Assembly: GCF_000092645.1 (NCBI RefSeq) | Contig: NC_014165.1 | Span: 2,170,001 to 2,234,000 of the forward strand | Length of the DNA: 64,000 bases | Reading direction: 5' to 3' | DNA from: Thermobispora bispora DSM 43833 | GTDB lineage: Bacteria > Actinomycetota > Actinomycetes > Streptosporangiales > Streptosporangiaceae | Shown: positions 3,582 to 64,000 of the stretch, one piece after another | How the letters are laid out: each line of letters begins with the position of its first letter | How positions within the stretch are numbered: the first letter of the stretch is position 1 | Program-made: the position numbers and the translations under genes | The notes under the pieces: model-generated | What the model was told of the DNA's origin: nothing | The model's input: the letters and a program-made list of their open reading frames with translations, nothing else | Databases searched by the model: none

Positions 3582-4525
3582 TCGCGCCTAGGGGTGGGCG
3601 GACCGATCGCCCCGTGCGGACGGGGTCCCCAGCGCCCGCCCCTCGATCGCACCTCACGAGCGGGAGACGCGCTCGTGCCGAGGAGCAGGCGGACCGATCG
3701 CCTCATGCGGGCAGGGAGGGAACGCGGCCGGGGCGGCACGGCGGCGGGCGGCCCGGCGTCCATGAACCGACCCGGCTCGCGGAGCTCCTCGCGGAGCTCC
3801 CTCAGCTCGGCGCGCAGGGCGGTGACCTCGGCGTAGATCGCGCTCTCCCGCGCCATCTCCTCCTCCATCGCGCTCACCACCACCGCGATGAAGAGGTTCA
3901 GCACCACGAACGTGCAGATCAGCACGAAGCCGATGAAGAACACCCAGGCCGAGGGGTGCTCCTCCATGACCTCCCTGGCCACGTCGGACCAGGCGTCCCC
4001 GGTCATGATCTGGAACAGGGTGAACAGCGACGTGGGAAGGTCGCCGAAGAGCTCGGGTGCGGTGGCGCCGTACAGCTTGGCGCCGATCACCGCCGCGACG
4101 TACAGCACCAGGCCGAGCAGCAGGATGATCGACGTCATGCCTGGGATGGCGTTGAGCAGCGCGGTGACCACCCGGCGCAGCGAGGGGATGACCGAGATCA
4201 GCCGTAGGGTGCGCAGCACGCGCAGCGCGCGGACCACGGAGATGCCGCCTCCGGCGAACGGCACCGACAGCCCGATGATCACCGTGTCGAAGATGTTCCA
4301 CGGATCGCAGAAGAAGCGCAGCCGGTACGCGTAGAGCTTTGCGGCGAGCTCGGCGATGAAGACGCCCAGCGCGACGTGATCGATCGCGGAGAGGACCTCG
4401 CCATAGCGGACCACCACGTACGGCGAGGTCTCGGCACCGAGCACCGCGGCGTTCACCAGGATGACCGCGATGATGAACTGCTGGAACCGGTGCGACTCGA
4501 CAACACGGCAGACGCGCTCTCGCAC
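3539..4525 (-). CDS. Voltage-gated cation channel, single-domain (NaChBac/Nav type)
   Basis: A 328-residue six-helix channel subunit. S4 (residues 95-118) carries Arg at every third position (VVRALRVLRTLRLISVIPSLRR). The pore helix runs into the filter TGDAWSD (175-181), then S6 (195-220). A Glu/Arg heptad stretch (221-251) would form the tetramerising coiled coil known from bacterial Nav channels. The filter differs from the T-L-E-S-W of NaChBac by Gly for Leu and Asp for Glu, plus a second Asp. The open frame extends far upstream to 5434, but that extension is low-complexity. GTG 4525 is preceded by GGGAG at 5 bp and gives a start directly before S1. The last 70 residues are Arg/Pro-rich. 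It converges on the small gene at 3336-3581. Confidence 0.82.
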   Translation of the reverse strand: MRERVCRVVESHRFQQFIIAVILVNAAVLGAETSPYVVVRYGEVLSAIDHVALGVFIAELAAKLYAYRLRFFCDPWNIFDTVIIGLSVPFAGGGISVVRALRVLRTLRLISVIPSLRRVVTALLNAIPGMTSIILLLGLVLYVAAVIGAKLYGATAPELFGDLPTSLFTLFQIMTGDAWSDVAREVMEEHPSAWVFFIGFVLICTFVVLNLFIAVVVSAMEEEMARESAIYAEVTALRAELRELREELREPGRFMDAGPPAAVPPRPRSLPARMRRSVRLLLGTSASPAREVRSRGGRWGPRPHGAIGPPTPRRDQSSRPYGAIEGSE

Positions 4526-58888: not shown

Positions 58889-59582
58889 GGCGTCGTGCCC
58901 TCCGCGCTACTGAGACGAACGGTGCCTTTTCCTGACGCGCGACGGGGCCGTTCGGTTGACAGCCGAGTCGGATCTCGCGCCGAACGGGGGAGCCCGCTCG
59001 GCGGAACGCACGCACCGGCCGGTGGATGGCCCGCCGGCGGCCGGCGAAGGTCCCGCCCGGGCGAGGCCGGGGCGCACCGCCGCGCCCGTGCCACCCCGCG
59101 GTGCCCGCGCCACGAGCACCCTGTTCCCCGGTCCACCGCACCGCGAGCGCACATTTATCACTTTTCCGCCTTGTATGGCCATGCCGGAAATTCCATAGAA
59201 CTCCTCGGTGGCCGGAGGACGGAAATCCGGATCGGCGCGCACGGGAAAACCCGGAATCGCCCGGTTTCCTGCTTTCTCATCCTTCCTTTTCGCCGCTCGC
59301 CGCGTTTCCCCTGGCATGCACTCTTCACGCGGCCGGCACCTGATTCTCCGTACGGGTGACGGCCCTGCGCCCGCCCGCGGAACCCCCTGCTCCCGGCGGC
59401 GCACCGGCCGACCGGCCATGCCGTACCGGCACTTTCTCATAACGGGATACCCGGATAATTCGGCATACTCTACGCCGATTTCCGGCCGGTAGGAATAGCC
59501 GGGGCGGCGGATGGGCATATTCGATATCGCCTCCCACCGGACGCGGGTTTTCCGAGGACCTGCGCTCAAAGGGGGAGGGCGC
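58889..59582. other. Long intergenic region without a supported gene
   Basis: About 690 bp between two divergent genes. The part from about 59145 to 59330 is unusually AT-rich for this window (ATTTATCACTTTTCCGCC; TGCTTTCTCATCCTTCC). Just before the amidase, CGGATAATTCGGCATACTC may hold its promoter. No conserved RNA fold is recognised. Confidence 0.5.
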
Positions 59583-60452
59583 ATGTCGGAGATCACACGC
59601 CGGATGTTCCTCTCGGCCGGGAGCGGTATCGCCGGGGCCATTCTCCTCGCACCCGAGGTCTTCGCCGCCTCCGTCCGGCCCCGGCGGCCGCGCCGGCCCC
59701 GCATCTACACCCGGAGCGAGTGGGACGCGGCGCCACCCCGGCGCAAGGCGACGGTGACCGACCATCCGCCGGACCGGATCGTCATCCACCACACCGCCAC
59801 CGCGAACACCGGCGACACCAGCCTCGAAGCGGCGTTCCGGCTCTCCCGGGCCATCCAGCGCCACCACATGCGGCGCAACGGCTGGGACGACATCGGGCAG
59901 CACTTCACGGTCAGCAGGGGCGGGTACATCCTCGAGGGCCGCAACCGCACCCTGCCCGCCATCGAGCAGGGCAAGCTCGCGGTGGGCGCCCACGTCGCCG
60001 GGCACAACAGCCGCGCGCTGGGCATCGAGACGGAGGGCACGTACATCGACGAGCTCCCCACCAAGGCCCAGCTCAACGCGCTCGTCGCGCTCGTCGCCTG
60101 GCTCTGCGCCACGTACCGGCTCGACCCCCAGAAAGCGATCATCGGGCACCGCGACCTCAACGCCACCGCCTGCCCGGGCGATCGCCTCTACGGCTACCTC
60201 GGCCGCCTCCGGGAGGACGTGGCCCGCCGCCTCGGCACGGTGCGCTCCTCGGCCGCCCGCCTCGCCGTGGCCGAGGAACCGCAGCCGGCCCTCGTGGAGC
60301 CGGGAGACGGCGAGGAGCCCGCGGAGCCGGAGCCGGGGCTCATCCGGCCGGTCGGGCGGAAGGACCGGGACGGCCGGACGGGCGACGATGCGCCGGAGGG
60401 TCCGCGCGGCCGTTGCCCGGCGGCCGGAGACGGCCCCGAACGGCTCAGCTGA
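59583..60452 (+). CDS. Tat-exported N-acetylmuramoyl-L-alanine amidase (PGRP/amidase_2 fold)
   Basis: A 289-residue enzyme. A twin-arginine signal (TRRMFLSAGSGIAGAILLAPEVFA) is followed by an amidase_2/PGRP domain. Zinc ligands are visible in IVIHHTAT (His) and IIGHRDLNATACPGD (His and Cys), with GIETEGTY in between. It cleaves the bond between MurNAc and L-Ala in peptidoglycan. The C-terminal 60 residues are Pro/Glu/Gly-rich. ATG 59583 follows GGGGGAGGG. Confidence 0.9.
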   Translation: MSEITRRMFLSAGSGIAGAILLAPEVFAASVRPRRPRRPRIYTRSEWDAAPPRRKATVTDHPPDRIVIHHTATANTGDTSLEAAFRLSRAIQRHHMRRNGWDDIGQHFTVSRGGYILEGRNRTLPAIEQGKLAVGAHVAGHNSRALGIETEGTYIDELPTKAQLNALVALVAWLCATYRLDPQKAIIGHRDLNATACPGDRLYGYLGRLREDVARRLGTVRSSAARLAVAEEPQPALVEPGDGEEPAEPEPGLIRPVGRKDRDGRTGDDAPEGPRGRCPAAGDGPERLS

Positions 60453-60753
60453 CCCACGGGCCTCGCCTGTTCCGCGGATCCGGACGGGACGCTCCCGCGA
60501 GCGGATGCCCCATCCCCCGGGCATGGGTACGCTCGGGTTTCAGCAGCTAGGGCGGCACCCCCGTGCCACCCCCGCGCATTCCCCGGAGGCCCTGCATGCG
60601 CACAGCTCTCCCCGACCGCTCGCCGTCCGCTCAGGTCGCCGTGCCTCAGGCGGGGTGACGGGTGACGCGCATGCTCCACACCGGCGCCAGGCGCCCCGGC
60701 GAGACGTTCCTCACCGGCCGCCGGTGGCGGGGAGTCCCCGGTAAGGGGGCCGC
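60453..60753. other. Intergenic region between amidase and flippase genes
   Basis: About 300 bp, GC-rich, with no supported gene and no clear promoter or terminator. AAGGGGG just before 60754 is the ribosome-binding site of the next gene. Confidence 0.45.
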
Positions 60754-63700
60754 ATGACCGCCTCAGAGCAGGGCCGGGGCGTCCTCCGCGGCAGCGCGGC
60801 CGGCTCGTTACCCGGCCTCGCCCGGCGGGCCGGGGACGGTCCGCCCGCCGGCCGGCTCCGCGCGGCGATCTCCGGCATCGTCGGCGACCCCCTCCTCCGC
60901 AACGCGTACGCGCTCATGATCAACGCGGGGGTCTCGGGCGCGCTCGGCCTCCTCTACTGGGTGCTCGCCGCCCGCCTCTACGACGCGGAAGAGGGCGGCC
61001 GGGCGATGGCGGTGATCGGCGCGATGCGCCTGCTCGCCTCCCTCACCTCGCTCGGGTTCTCCGGCACCCTCACCCGGTTCATCGCCGACACCGGCCGCGC
61101 CACAGGCCGGTTCATCGCCGGCGTCTACCTGCTCGCGAGCGGGGCGGCGCTCGTGCTGACCGCCGGCTTCCTGCTCACCCTCCCCCACTGGGGCCCGAAC
61201 TACCGCGACCTGAGCGGGCTCGGCCCCGGCCTGCTCTTCTGCGTCGCCGTGGTCTCCTGGGTGGTCTTCACCCTGCAGGACGTCGCCCTCACCGGGCTGC
61301 GCAAGGCCACCTGGGTGCCGGTCAAGAACATCGCGTACGCCGTCGTCAAGATCATCCTGCTCGTCGCGCTGGCGAAGGCGCTGCCGTCGGCCGGCATCGC
61401 GGTGTCCTGGGTCCTGCCCGTGGTGATCGGGATCCTCCCCGTGGATCTGCTGATCTTCGGCAGGCTGGTGCCCGAGCACCGCAGGCGGACGGCCGGGCGG
61501 CGGCCGCCGTCGATCCGGACGCTCGGCAGGTTCCTCGCCGGGGACTACCTCGGCTCCATGTTCATCCAGGCGATCACCTTCCTGCTGCCGGTGATCGTCG
61601 GGGCCCTCGTGGAGGCGCGGCAGTTCAACTACTACTACAGCGTCACCATGATCGGCGGGCTGCTGGAGACGCTCGCCATGACCATGGCGGCCTCGCTCAC
61701 CGTGGAGGGCGCCTTCAACCGGGCCGCGCTCGCCGCCAACGGCCGCCGCGCGCTCAGCCGCTCCCTGCTCAGCCTCAGCCCGGTGGTGTTCGGCGCGATC
61801 GTGCTCGCCCCGTGGGTGATGGCGCTGTTCAGCCCCGGGCACGCCGAGCACGCGACCACGCTGCTCAGGTTCGTCGTGCTCGCCACGCTCCCCCGCGCGG
61901 TGGTCGAGATCCATCTCGGCGTGCTCCGCGCCATGAACCGGGCCCGGGCGCTCGTGGTCGTCCAGGGGACGATGTGCGCCGGCGTGTTCGCCGGGACGTT
62001 CGTCCTGCTGCCCCGGCTCGGCATCACGGGGGTCGGCCTCGCCCTGTTCCTCGCCCAGCTCGGCGTCGCCCTCGCCGTCCTGCCGTCGCTGGTCCGCGTG
62101 CTGTGGACCCGCGAGGGCACCGAATCTGGTGGTTCGTCCCGCATGATGGTCCCCGTGACGACGATCAGTGAGCGCGTGACCCGGTTAGGGACCCGGATGC
62201 TGGCCGTCATGCCCCACCCCGACCGGGTGAAGAGATGGCTGCTGCCGATCCTGTCCGCCCAGGGCCTGGCCATCTACCTGATCGCGCTGCTCGCGCCGCC
62301 CGGCGAGCTCGCCGGCGTCGACGTGGAGCGGATGAACGGCCTCGGGCTCATCTCGGTGCTGCCGCCCACCGCCTTCGCCGGGCTGGCGCTGCTGATCGTC
62401 ACGTTCTTCGTCACGTTCGCCCAGCGCCGGTACCGCCCCGTCCTGCTCCTCGCCCAGCTCCTCGCGATCACGTTCTGCCTGCACGGGGCGGGCGCTCTGG
62501 TCGCGGAGGAGCCGCGCTTCCCCACGGCCTGGCTGCACGTCGGCTTCGCCGAGTACATCGCGCGGACCGGTGGCACGCTCCCCGGCCTCGACGCGCGGTT
62601 CAGCTGGCCGGGCTTCTTCGCGCTCTTCGCCTTCGTGGGCGGCGCCGCCGGCATGGAGGACTTCCGCGGGCTGGTCAACTGGACGCCCCTCGTCTCGAAC
62701 GTCTGCTACCTCGTCCCGCTCCTGCTGATCCTGCGGCGCATGCGCGCCGACCGCCGGGCCAAGTGGCTGGCCGCGCTGCTGTTCGTCACCCTCCAGTGGA
62801 TCGGCCAGGACTACTTCTCCCCGCAGGGCACCACGTACCTGATGTACCTGCTGCTGATCGCCATCGTGGTGACCTGGTTCGGGCGCGAGCGCGATCGGCC
62901 GGCCGGGGAGCCCCGCGGGCTGCTGAGCCGGCTCGCCGGCTACCTCGACGAGGCGGAGCCGGGTGAGCTGCCCGCGAAGCAGGCCGACCCGATCACGCGG
63001 ATCGCGCTGTACGGCGTGCTGCTCCTGCTCGGCGCCGCCGCGGCCGCGACGCACCAGATCACCCCGTTCATGATGGCGGCCTCCACCCTCGGCCTGGTCA
63101 TGCTGCGGCGGTGCGGGGTGGCCACGCTCCCCTGGCTGATCGGCGGGTTCGCGGTCGGCTGGCTGAGCTACTTCGCCACGCCGTACTGGTACGGCCACAT
63201 CGGCGACCTGTTCGGCGGGATCGGCTCGCTGCTCAGCAACCTGACCGCGAACACCACGGGCCGCATGGAGGCGGCGACCGGCGATCCCCTCCACCCGTAC
63301 GTGCTCCAGCTCCGCCTCGGGTTCGCCGTGGTGCTCGTGCTGCTCGCCGGGGTCGGGCTCGCCCGCCGGGTGCGGCGCATGGTGATGGACCGGGTCGCGC
63401 TGGTGCTCACCGTGACCCCGCTCTCCGCGATGGCGCTGCAGAGCTACGGCGGGGAGATGGGGCTGCGCGTGTACCTGTTCATGCTGCCGGGCGCCTGCAT
63501 CCTCGCCGCCTACGCCTTCTTCCCCGAGCCCCCGGGGAGCCTGCGGGGCATGCGCCAGGTGATCGGCAAGCCCTCCCGGCTCGAGCTGCTCCGGGCGCGG
63601 CTCGCCCTCCCGCTCGCCGTGGTGACCACGCTCGCGCTCTGCGGCGGCTTCTTCGTCGCCCGGTACGGCAACGAGCAGTTCGAGCGCATCACCACCGGCG

Positions 63701-64000
63701 AGGCGCTCGCCCTCGAGTACATCTACGCGCGCGACCGGCCCAGCGCCCGGGTGCTGGTGCTCGCCCCCAGCGACGCGGAACCCGGCACGGTGAGCAGCGA
63801 CCTCATGGCGAGCATGGTGCCGTGGCGGGAGAAGCACGTCGAGCGGGTGGAGTGGGTCAGCACCCCGCCCCCGACCGACCCCGAGGACATCGGCCAGGTC
63901 ATCACCGCGCTGCGCTCGCTGGGCCCTGGATCGTTCCTGCTCACCACCCGGGCCCAGGAGACCCTGCTCGAGGTGACCGACCCGGCCGGCCAGGGCATCG
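60754..64000 (+). CDS. MOP-type polysaccharide flippase fused to a second polytopic membrane module (3' end outside window)
   Basis: One uninterrupted frame of at least 1082 codons opens at ATG 60754 (AAGGGGG upstream) and has no stop before the window edge. Residues about 45-455 form a multi-helix MOP/Wzx-like flippase (NAYALMINAGVSGALGLLYWVLAARLYD; DYLGSMFIQAITFLLPVIVG; ALFSPGHAEHATTLLRFVVLATLPR). After a hydrophilic linker (about 455-490, with Met464-Met465) come a dozen more helices (about 490-990) resembling large glycan polymerases or GT-C-like enzymes (TAWLHVGFAEYIARTG; DYFSPQGTTYLMYLLLIAI). A soluble tail follows. Likely role: export and assembly of a cell-surface polysaccharide. Second-module identity is inference. 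Confidence 0.75.
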   Translation, partial: MTASEQGRGVLRGSAAGSLPGLARRAGDGPPAGRLRAAISGIVGDPLLRNAYALMINAGVSGALGLLYWVLAARLYDAEEGGRAMAVIGAMRLLASLTSLGFSGTLTRFIADTGRATGRFIAGVYLLASGAALVLTAGFLLTLPHWGPNYRDLSGLGPGLLFCVAVVSWVVFTLQDVALTGLRKATWVPVKNIAYAVVKIILLVALAKALPSAGIAVSWVLPVVIGILPVDLLIFGRLVPEHRRRTAGRRPPSIRTLGRFLAGDYLGSMFIQAITFLLPVIVGALVEARQFNYYYSVTMIGGLLETLAMTMAASLTVEGAFNRAALAANGRRALSRSLLSLSPVVFGAIVLAPWVMALFSPGHAEHATTLLRFVVLATLPRAVVEIHLGVLRAMNRARALVVVQGTMCAGVFAGTFVLLPRLGITGVGLALFLAQLGVALAVLPSLVRVLWTREGTESGGSSRMMVPVTTISERVTRLGTRMLAVMPHPDRVKRWLLPILSAQGLAIYLIALLAPPGELAGVDVERMNGLGLISVLPPTAFAGLALLIVTFFVTFAQRRYRPVLLLAQLLAITFCLHGAGALVAEEPRFPTAWLHVGFAEYIARTGGTLPGLDARFSWPGFFALFAFVGGAAGMEDFRGLVNWTPLVSNVCYLVPLLLILRRMRADRRAKWLAALLFVTLQWIGQDYFSPQGTTYLMYLLLIAIVVTWFGRERDRPAGEPRGLLSRLAGYLDEAEPGELPAKQADPITRIALYGVLLLLGAAAAATHQITPFMMAASTLGLVMLRRCGVATLPWLIGGFAVGWLSYFATPYWYGHIGDLFGGIGSLLSNLTANTTGRMEAATGDPLHPYVLQLRLGFAVVLVLLAGVGLARRVRRMVMDRVALVLTVTPLSAMALQSYGGEMGLRVYLFMLPGACILAAYAFFPEPPGSLRGMRQVIGKPSRLELLRARLALPLAVVTTLALCGGFFVARYGNEQFERITTGEALALEYIYARDRPSARVLVLAPSDAEPGTVSSDLMASMVPWREKHVERVEWVSTPPPTDPEDIGQVITALRSLGPGSFLLTTRAQETLLEVTDPAGQGI

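Follow-up and report, generated by a model that had tools for sequence, protein, structure and literature searches.

A predicted MOP flippase and a predicted GT-C glycosyltransferase joined in a single gene of Thermobispora bispora and other Actinomycetota

The genome of the thermophile Thermobispora bispora (4,189,976 bases, a single contig) contains the 64-kb stretch of DNA analysed here, which we refer to as the window and whose coordinates are used throughout. At the end of the window, on the forward strand, lies a gene in which a putative flippase is fused to a putative GT-C glycosyltransferase. The gene occupies positions 60754..64000 within the window, runs on to 64347 and encodes 1197 amino acids in one frame. 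A preliminary description of this stretch had reported that the frame beginning at ATG 60754 is open up to the end of the window, and had proposed looking for its stop beyond position 64000. The open frame was confirmed: it has 1197 codons and ends at a TGA at 64345-64347, 347 bases beyond the window end, as read from a stretch fetched from the same genome (L003, in which positions 4345-4347 correspond to 64345-64347 of the window). Ahead of the start ATG there is a Shine-Dalgarno-like AAGGGGG on the same strand (60743..60749, read by eye).

Third-position guanine-plus-cytosine (GC) content is between 0.85 and 1.00 in every one of the 29 forty-codon blocks that make up codons 1-1160 of the fusion, and it is 0.86 across the junction (codons 446-495), so the frame looks coding throughout, junction included. 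An open frame is by itself weak evidence in this high-GC region, because two other frames are nearly stop-free (2 and 4 stops across the same stretch). A real gene is supported by homology, which covers both halves; for the second half, the counterpart in one relative shows 73% identity. Third-position GC content and homology across both halves together rule out a chance open frame, and a base-calling artefact is excluded because several genomes, each sequenced separately, share the in-frame fusion. The open frame is confirmed as one real gene.

The first half of the protein contains a MOP-superfamily (Wzx/MurJ-like) flippase module (60892..62106, + strand, approximately residues 47-451), assigned using PF01943 and fold alignment. 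The structure model of the window's own 1082 residues (mbecb01e393ed) was built from 25 sequences and has a predicted local distance difference test score (pLDDT) of 75.4 and a predicted template modelling score (pTM) of 0.58. Residues 50-451 of this model aligned to WzxE (9g9p) with a Z-score of 30.7 (388 residues aligned to the 409-residue chain, root-mean-square deviation 3.7), and the same predicted module aligned to MurJ (6nc6) with a Z-score of 29.7. PF01943 matched the flippase half at 29.9 bits in a search of the genome, barely above the cut-off of 28.2, and scored 24.1 and 26.3 bits (E-value 5.9e-6), under the gathering score, when the protein or the half was scanned. Among 25 scanned proteins, 12 had a match to PF01943 and one to MatE (E-value 0.05 or better). 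The predicted fold clearly identifies the first half as a WzxE/MurJ-type MOP flippase. Several of the MurJ alignments extend to approximately residue 554-585, over the two helices that precede the GT-C core (492-556). We placed these helices in the second module because the second gene holds them in unfused relatives.

The second half is predicted to form a GT-C-fold glycosyltransferase module (62227..63999, continuing to 64344, + strand), with helices at residues 492-513 and 538-556, a GT-C core from approximately residue 557 and an alpha/beta domain near the C-terminus. Residues 557-1082 of the window's own model aligned to yeast STT3 with a Z-score of 17.8. The complete GT-C half of a Microbispora corallina relative (71% identical) was also modelled (pLDDT 85.9, pTM 0.88), and this model gave Z-scores of 21.3 against STT3 (438 residues), 16.5 against ArnT, 15.9 against AftA and 15.0 against PglB; Foldseek agreed with the assignment of the Microbispora half to the GT-C fold. 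Oligosaccharyltransferases, PMT and ArnT are the best fold matches of the GT-C half, and EmbA/EmbB, AftA and AftD are also among the fold matches. On these fold matches, the second half is clearly predicted to be a GT-C glycosyltransferase of the STT3/ArnT/AftA type.

The proposal of the preliminary description that one protein unites a flippase with a second polytopic glycan enzyme is therefore supported by the predicted folds, and its guess that the second enzyme is GT-C-like appears to have been correct. Its alternative term, polymerase, is not supported in the Wzy sense. Wzy polymerases have a RodA/WaaL-like GT-C class fold, and RodA/WaaL-class enzymes were not among the fold matches listed, which is not evidence of absence. 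Neither the GT-C half nor 47 relatives matched a Wzy family in Pfam, and no match to PF04932 (Wzy_C) was found in the genome. With no Wzy family match and a predicted fold of the STT3/AglB, ArnT and AftA kind, a Wzy-type polymerase is unsupported. Oligosaccharyltransferases carry a WWD motif, and this motif was found in none of 77 family sequences (0/77), so an oligosaccharyltransferase proper was rejected. Searching each half separately, as had been suggested, was informative for the first half alone: it matched PF01943 close to the cut-off, and the second half had no credible sequence match in Pfam, NCBIfam or the PDB. Because of this lack of matches, the GT-C half may represent a GT-C family that has yet to be named and that occurs in Streptomyces and its relatives.

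Conserved positions of the GT-C half include the following four (residues in the numbering of the L131 sequence are given alongside those of the window). R588 (62515..62517, + strand) is invariant (R119, 77/77). E600 (62551..62553, + strand), located in the loop that follows the first helix of the core, is a candidate catalytic acid and corresponds to E/D131 in 76 of 77 sequences. D613 corresponds to D144, which is D in 74 of 76. D686 (62809..62811, + strand) is a second conserved acid located between two core helices within a GQDYFSPQG motif (D217, 77/77).

The two modules are connected by a low-confidence linker that is probably disordered (62110..62226, + strand, residues 453-491, pLDDT < 50). 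It is presumed to be cytoplasmic because flippases of the MOP kind usually have an even number of helices. The linkers of 24 fused family members total 2334 residues and are Ala- and Pro-rich. At the junction, an R-M-M-V-P-V motif (62140..62157, + strand) is homologous to the region (ATGATGGTCNNCGTGA) where the second gene of unfused relatives has its start codon. The flippase gene of unfused Nonomuraea closes with GCA TGA, and on these same bases the GT-C gene begins with ATG ATG GTC AAC GTG; in Thermobispora the junction reads CGC ATG ATG GTC CCC GTG ACG in a single frame. By this homology, Met464-Met465 is the equivalent of the relatives' start codon. An out-of-frame TGA at 62144..62146 (+ strand) corresponds to the flippase stop of unfused Nonomuraea and Bailinhaonella (GCA TGA overlapping ATG ATG), and a second out-of-frame TGA at 62156..62158 (+ strand) corresponds to the stop that ends the Sphaerisporangium flippase gene (GTGA overlap). 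The earlier observation that Met464-Met465 lacks a ribosome-binding site holds, as inspection by eye revealed a weak GGTGG at 62128-62132 and nothing stronger upstream. The clade that shares this junction has RMMV in six of seven genomes, and Microbispora has RIMV.

To describe the distribution of the fusion, two sets of loci were used. The family set comprised 200 genomes, with a flippase match in 106 and a GT-C match in 99; we chose by eye 67 genomes with both halves on one contig within ~3 kb, which together with the Thermobispora genome gave 68 loci (genomes were excluded if either half was absent, if the halves lay far apart or on separate contigs, or if the only GT-C matches were distant ones some kilobases off). 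The named set was drawn from the best 80 of 571 confirmed loci. Leaving out 8 loci without a flippase gave 72, and leaving out a further 6 shorter than 15 kb gave 66 fully flanked loci. Combining both sets and removing loci with an identical flippase start yielded 109 distinct pairs. Homologues that keep the fusion, which the preliminary description had proposed to look for, are present: the modules are fused in frame in 36 of the 109 distinct adjacent pairs and separate in 73. Among loci with the modules close together, 24 of 68 in the family set are fused (44 are separate), as are 24 of the 72 named loci with both modules. Fused named loci on the Streptosporangiaceae side come from Microbispora, Sphaerimonospora, three Microtetraspora, five Herbidospora, Planotetraspora and one further Streptosporangiaceae, and the others come from Actinoallomurus, a Frankiales metagenome-assembled genome, Actinomycetospora, Streptantibioticus and eight Streptomyces. 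The two modules are separate in a fourth Microtetraspora (L138), which sits in another clade. In wider searches, either half of the query was matched in 75 of 394 genomes at the class level, and 23 of 396 genomes had matches at the phylum level.

The preliminary description had set against a genuine fusion the prospect of close relatives with two separate genes, together with evidence for an in-frame deletion or an internal start. Relatives with two genes do exist, and the internal Met is the equivalent of their start, but all seven genomes compared in the nearest clade, Thermobispora included, are fused, with linkers of differing lengths. As all seven are fused, this comparison indicates that the fusion was inherited and did not arise through an error. 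In a tree of the GT-C half there are 3 changes of the fusion label, each of them required by starred branches, compared with 20.2 changes for shuffled labels. In a wider tree, from which all Nonomuraea but 6 were removed, there are 6 label changes, at least 5 of them forced and one resting on L204. Both trees are quick and unrooted and have some long branches; judging from them, the fusion state is clade-stable. The distances of the two modules are correlated (r 0.968, 68 pairs), to which shared species history contributes. L204 (Streptomyces himastatinicus) is the sole unfused locus among the 10 Streptomycetaceae named loci, and its flippase and GT-C frames share ~1 kb of sequence, suggesting that the draft assembly contains a frameshift.

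In 56 of the 73 distinct separate pairs, the start of the second gene and the stop of the flippase gene overlap by exactly 4 bases (ATGA, GTGA or TTGA); for each separate GT-C gene we used whichever start came closest to this spacing. Such overlaps would be expected by chance in 9.0 of 73 pairs, given that 319 of 860 other predicted genes in these loci end in [AGT]TGA and assuming a random frame. A 4-base stop/start overlap usually means coupled translation. With these starts, many of the separate second genes would encode a lengthy N-terminal extension (up to ~600 codons) ahead of the membrane part, comparable to or longer than the linkers of fused proteins. In L142 and other Nonomuraea, extensions of 234-479 codons would lie right after the flippase stop, if the start is at the overlap. 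In two loci, L085 (G043) and L084 (G132), the nearest start of the second gene is 39 bases past the flippase stop, and in G043 both genes are in one frame, parted by the flippase stop. The open-frame length given by the genome search spans both halves of G043 despite this stop, so such lengths played no part in the fusion counts.

Nine further loci, from eight family genomes and G546, have only a distant, non-adjacent GT-C. In eight of these (L277-L284: G005, G015, G122, G188, G098, G095, G157 and G546) the flippase frame extends by 258-387 residues. The G121 tail has 24 amino acids and was excluded from the tail alignments, which are gap-rich. Six of the eight tails match the GT-C half at a tblastn E-value of 1e-3 or better, a seventh (G005) matches it within a longer match, and the G095 tail had no tblastn match to the GT-C half. 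None of the eight aligned tails has D at position 144 or 217; E at 131 is present only in G095, and R at 119 only in G015. A separate GT-C relative is present in the same fetched locus in all nine cases. Five of these nine were compared (G005, G095, G121 and G546 were left out), and all five keep R119, D131 and QDY and have S or A in place of D144. The downstream GT-C matches of G005 and G121 contain a TGA. The tails suggest that a catalytically dead GT-C can stay attached to the flippase, in a sample that is small because the nine loci span six genera, with four from one genus. The retention of D131 and replacement of D144 in the separate GT-Cs favours E600 over D613 as the candidate catalytic acid.

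Neighbouring genes were counted up to 8 kb away from the GT-C match (tblastn E-value 1e-15) in the 66 fully flanked named loci. A gene for an AglJ-like GT2 glycosyltransferase was found in all 66, and one for an AglG-like GT2 in 54, including 44/44 separate loci and 10/22 fused loci. A polysaccharide deacetylase with PgaB similarity is encoded near 44/44 separate and 14/22 fused pairs, an Acetyltransf_6 protein near 42/44 and 19/22, and a GH39-like protein near 35/44 and 20/22, respectively; cytochrome P450 matches were found in 11/22 fused and 5/44 separate loci. The AglJ-like protein matched TIGR04182 (6.6e-39) with 134 bits against an NCBI cut-off of 325, and the AglG-like protein matched NF041394 (3.4e-58) with 197 bits against a cut-off of 440. 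In Thermobispora, genes for the AglJ-like, AglG-like and deacetylase proteins, 54-74% identical to those of the relatives, are located side by side at ~3.138-3.141 Mb (L246:7631-10526, about 3.1376-3.1405 Mb), and the nearest PDB structure to the AglJ-like protein is the dolichol-phosphate mannose synthase 5mlz (8.4e-17). A distinct GT2 gene at 2.087 Mb of the same genome lies beside an apolipoprotein N-acyltransferase (Lnt)-like gene and is probably Ppm1. Upstream of the fusion there is an Amidase_2 family gene (59511..60452, + strand). Genes of this family also precede the fusion in loci of Microbispora, Microtetraspora, Herbidospora and Planotetraspora, where the AglJ-like gene separates the two. 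Downstream of the Thermobispora fusion are GH39-like, two Acetyltransf_6 and P450 genes. The P450 gene (L003:7450-8694, - strand) is located between the two Acetyltransf_6 genes and is 75% identical to that of Microtetraspora.

Flipping and glycan transfer are normally the jobs of separate proteins. The locus presents a single frame, a junction homologous to that of two-gene relatives, a conserved pairing and conserved pathway neighbours, along with two predicted folds; we infer the donor, the flipping and transfer steps, the hand-over between modules, the acceptor and the coupling as follows. The protein probably unites a flippase with the transferase that consumes its product, within an extracytoplasmic glycosylation system of the three-component type. 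AglJ-like (and AglG-like) GT-A enzymes would build a polyprenyl-phosphate-linked sugar or short oligosaccharide on the cytoplasmic side, the N-terminal MOP module would move this lipid-linked glycan to the outer face, and the tethered GT-C module would then glycosylate an acceptor on the far side of the membrane, with the flipped lipid as its donor. The tether would hold flipping and transfer side by side at 1:1 stoichiometry, and unfused relatives may reach a similar result through the 4-base ATGA/GTGA/TTGA overlap. That a MOP flippase and a GT-C are covalently linked constitutes strong genetic evidence for one supplying the other, and with both in a single chain, reconstitution experiments could test for coupling. 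More tentatively, the two modules might form one channelled machine, in which the MOP module flips a polyprenyl-monophosphate glycan and hands it directly to the GT-C module, with stoichiometry fixed across Actinomycetota by fusion or 4-base overlap and with side lineages in which the partner is a decayed pseudo-GT-C and a second GT-C catalyses.

Several results weigh against a flippase that supplies its own fused transferase. Fusion is not required, because most pairs are unfused, and the decayed modules of some fused relatives indicate that the GT-C part need not be catalytic everywhere. The known GT-C catalytic acid is not matched with certainty to E600, D613 or D686, and the arrangement of the modules relative to each other in the model is unreliable at its pTM and number of sequences (0.58 and 25). 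Fewer than half of the fully flanked fused loci (10 of 22) have the AglG-like gene nearby. The AglJ-like cluster of Thermobispora is 0.9 Mb from the fusion and not adjacent to it. Furthermore, the AglJ-like and AglG-like proteins are relatives and not shown orthologues of the archaeal enzymes, because their scores are far under the cut-offs.

Alternatively, the protein could combine a flippase with a polysaccharide polymerase, the GT-C module extending an exopolysaccharide processively in an EmbC/AftA-like manner while the deacetylase, acetyltransferases and GH39-like hydrolases modify or trim the product. The fold does not tell single addition from many, and both the exopolysaccharide-type neighbours (PgaB-like deacetylase, Acetyltransf_6 and GH39-like proteins) and the presence of AftA, EmbA/EmbB and AftD among the fold matches fit such a polymerase. 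We nevertheless consider it unlikely, given that Wzy_C had no match in the genome and that the best folds are oligosaccharyltransferases, PMT and ArnT. The decayed tails raise a different prospect, that the fused GT-C serves chiefly in docking to, or regulating, the flippase and another GT-C carries out catalysis. The loss of D144 and D217 in 8/8 aligned tails and the separate GT-C in 9/9 of the same loci are consistent with this, but the conserved residues are present in Thermobispora and its close fused relatives, and the queries used detected no further GT-C relative in the Thermobispora genome; for this protein we regard a docking role as very unlikely.

The junction itself could give rise to two products, the full fusion and a free GT-C started at Met464/Met465 or at GTG 62155, the former start. 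R-M-M-V is kept in six of the seven clade genomes (R-I-M-V in the seventh) despite the variable linker around it, which speaks for such a start. Against this, there is no convincing ribosome-binding site, and the start in unfused relatives overlaps a stop codon, an arrangement that is lost on fusion, so that a second product seems very unlikely. An erased stop near 62130, through sequencing or assembly error, would be in keeping with the stop that unfused relatives have at the equivalent bases, although there it lies in another frame. The in-frame fusion is found in 7/7 clade genomes, with differing linker lengths, and in other clades. These fused relatives rule out an assembly error, and the chance of such an error is negligible.

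The fold of each part and the logic of three-component systems are already known. It is unusual that a MOP flippase and a GT-C are covalently united, that this fusion alternates with 4-base overlaps and that decayed versions of it exist, and our literature search, which had most subscription journals outside its scope, found no paper on such a fusion. WzxE and MurJ (9g9p and 6nc6) have a fold in common with residues 50-451 at an identity of just 12-14%, and they differ in being stand-alone proteins that act on lipid-pyrophosphate substrates. Similarly, ArnT, AftA and STT3 match the second half in fold, with ~10-12% identity and no common sequence family found, but have no tethered flippase, unlike the Thermobispora protein. 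MprF, in which the enzyme that makes lysyl-phosphatidylglycerol is fused to its flippase, is a precedent for an enzyme-flippase fusion, with folds unrelated to those described here.

For Haloferax volcanii, one study (PMC3871713) assigns AglJ and AglG to the group of enzymes attaching the first four sugars to dolichol phosphate, with AglR and Agl15 as proposed flippases and AglB as the transferase. Relatives of AglJ and AglG adjoin the flippase/GT-C pair in other actinomycetes, and the GT-C half has a predicted STT3/AglB fold. The Haloferax components are separate proteins, however, the actinobacterial GT2s score far under the archaeal cut-offs, and WWD is missing from 77/77 sequences. The closest described parallel in logic is the three-component system of Citrobacter youngae O1, whose ORF15, ORF14 and GT136 ORF12 are of the GtrB/GtrA/Gtr type (PMC11127046). 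This system likewise encodes a synthase, a flippase and a GT-C together, with the donor made inside and used outside. A synthase gene accompanies the flippase and GT-C in 66/66 fully flanked named loci, by homology only, and is unlinked in Thermobispora. As described in PMC11127046, the Citrobacter flippase ORF14 is a four-helix, EmrE/ArnE-like protein (the text says MATE), whereas that of Thermobispora is of the predicted WzxE/MurJ type, and the Citrobacter parts are separate proteins, whereas the MOP flippase of Thermobispora is fused to its GT-C.

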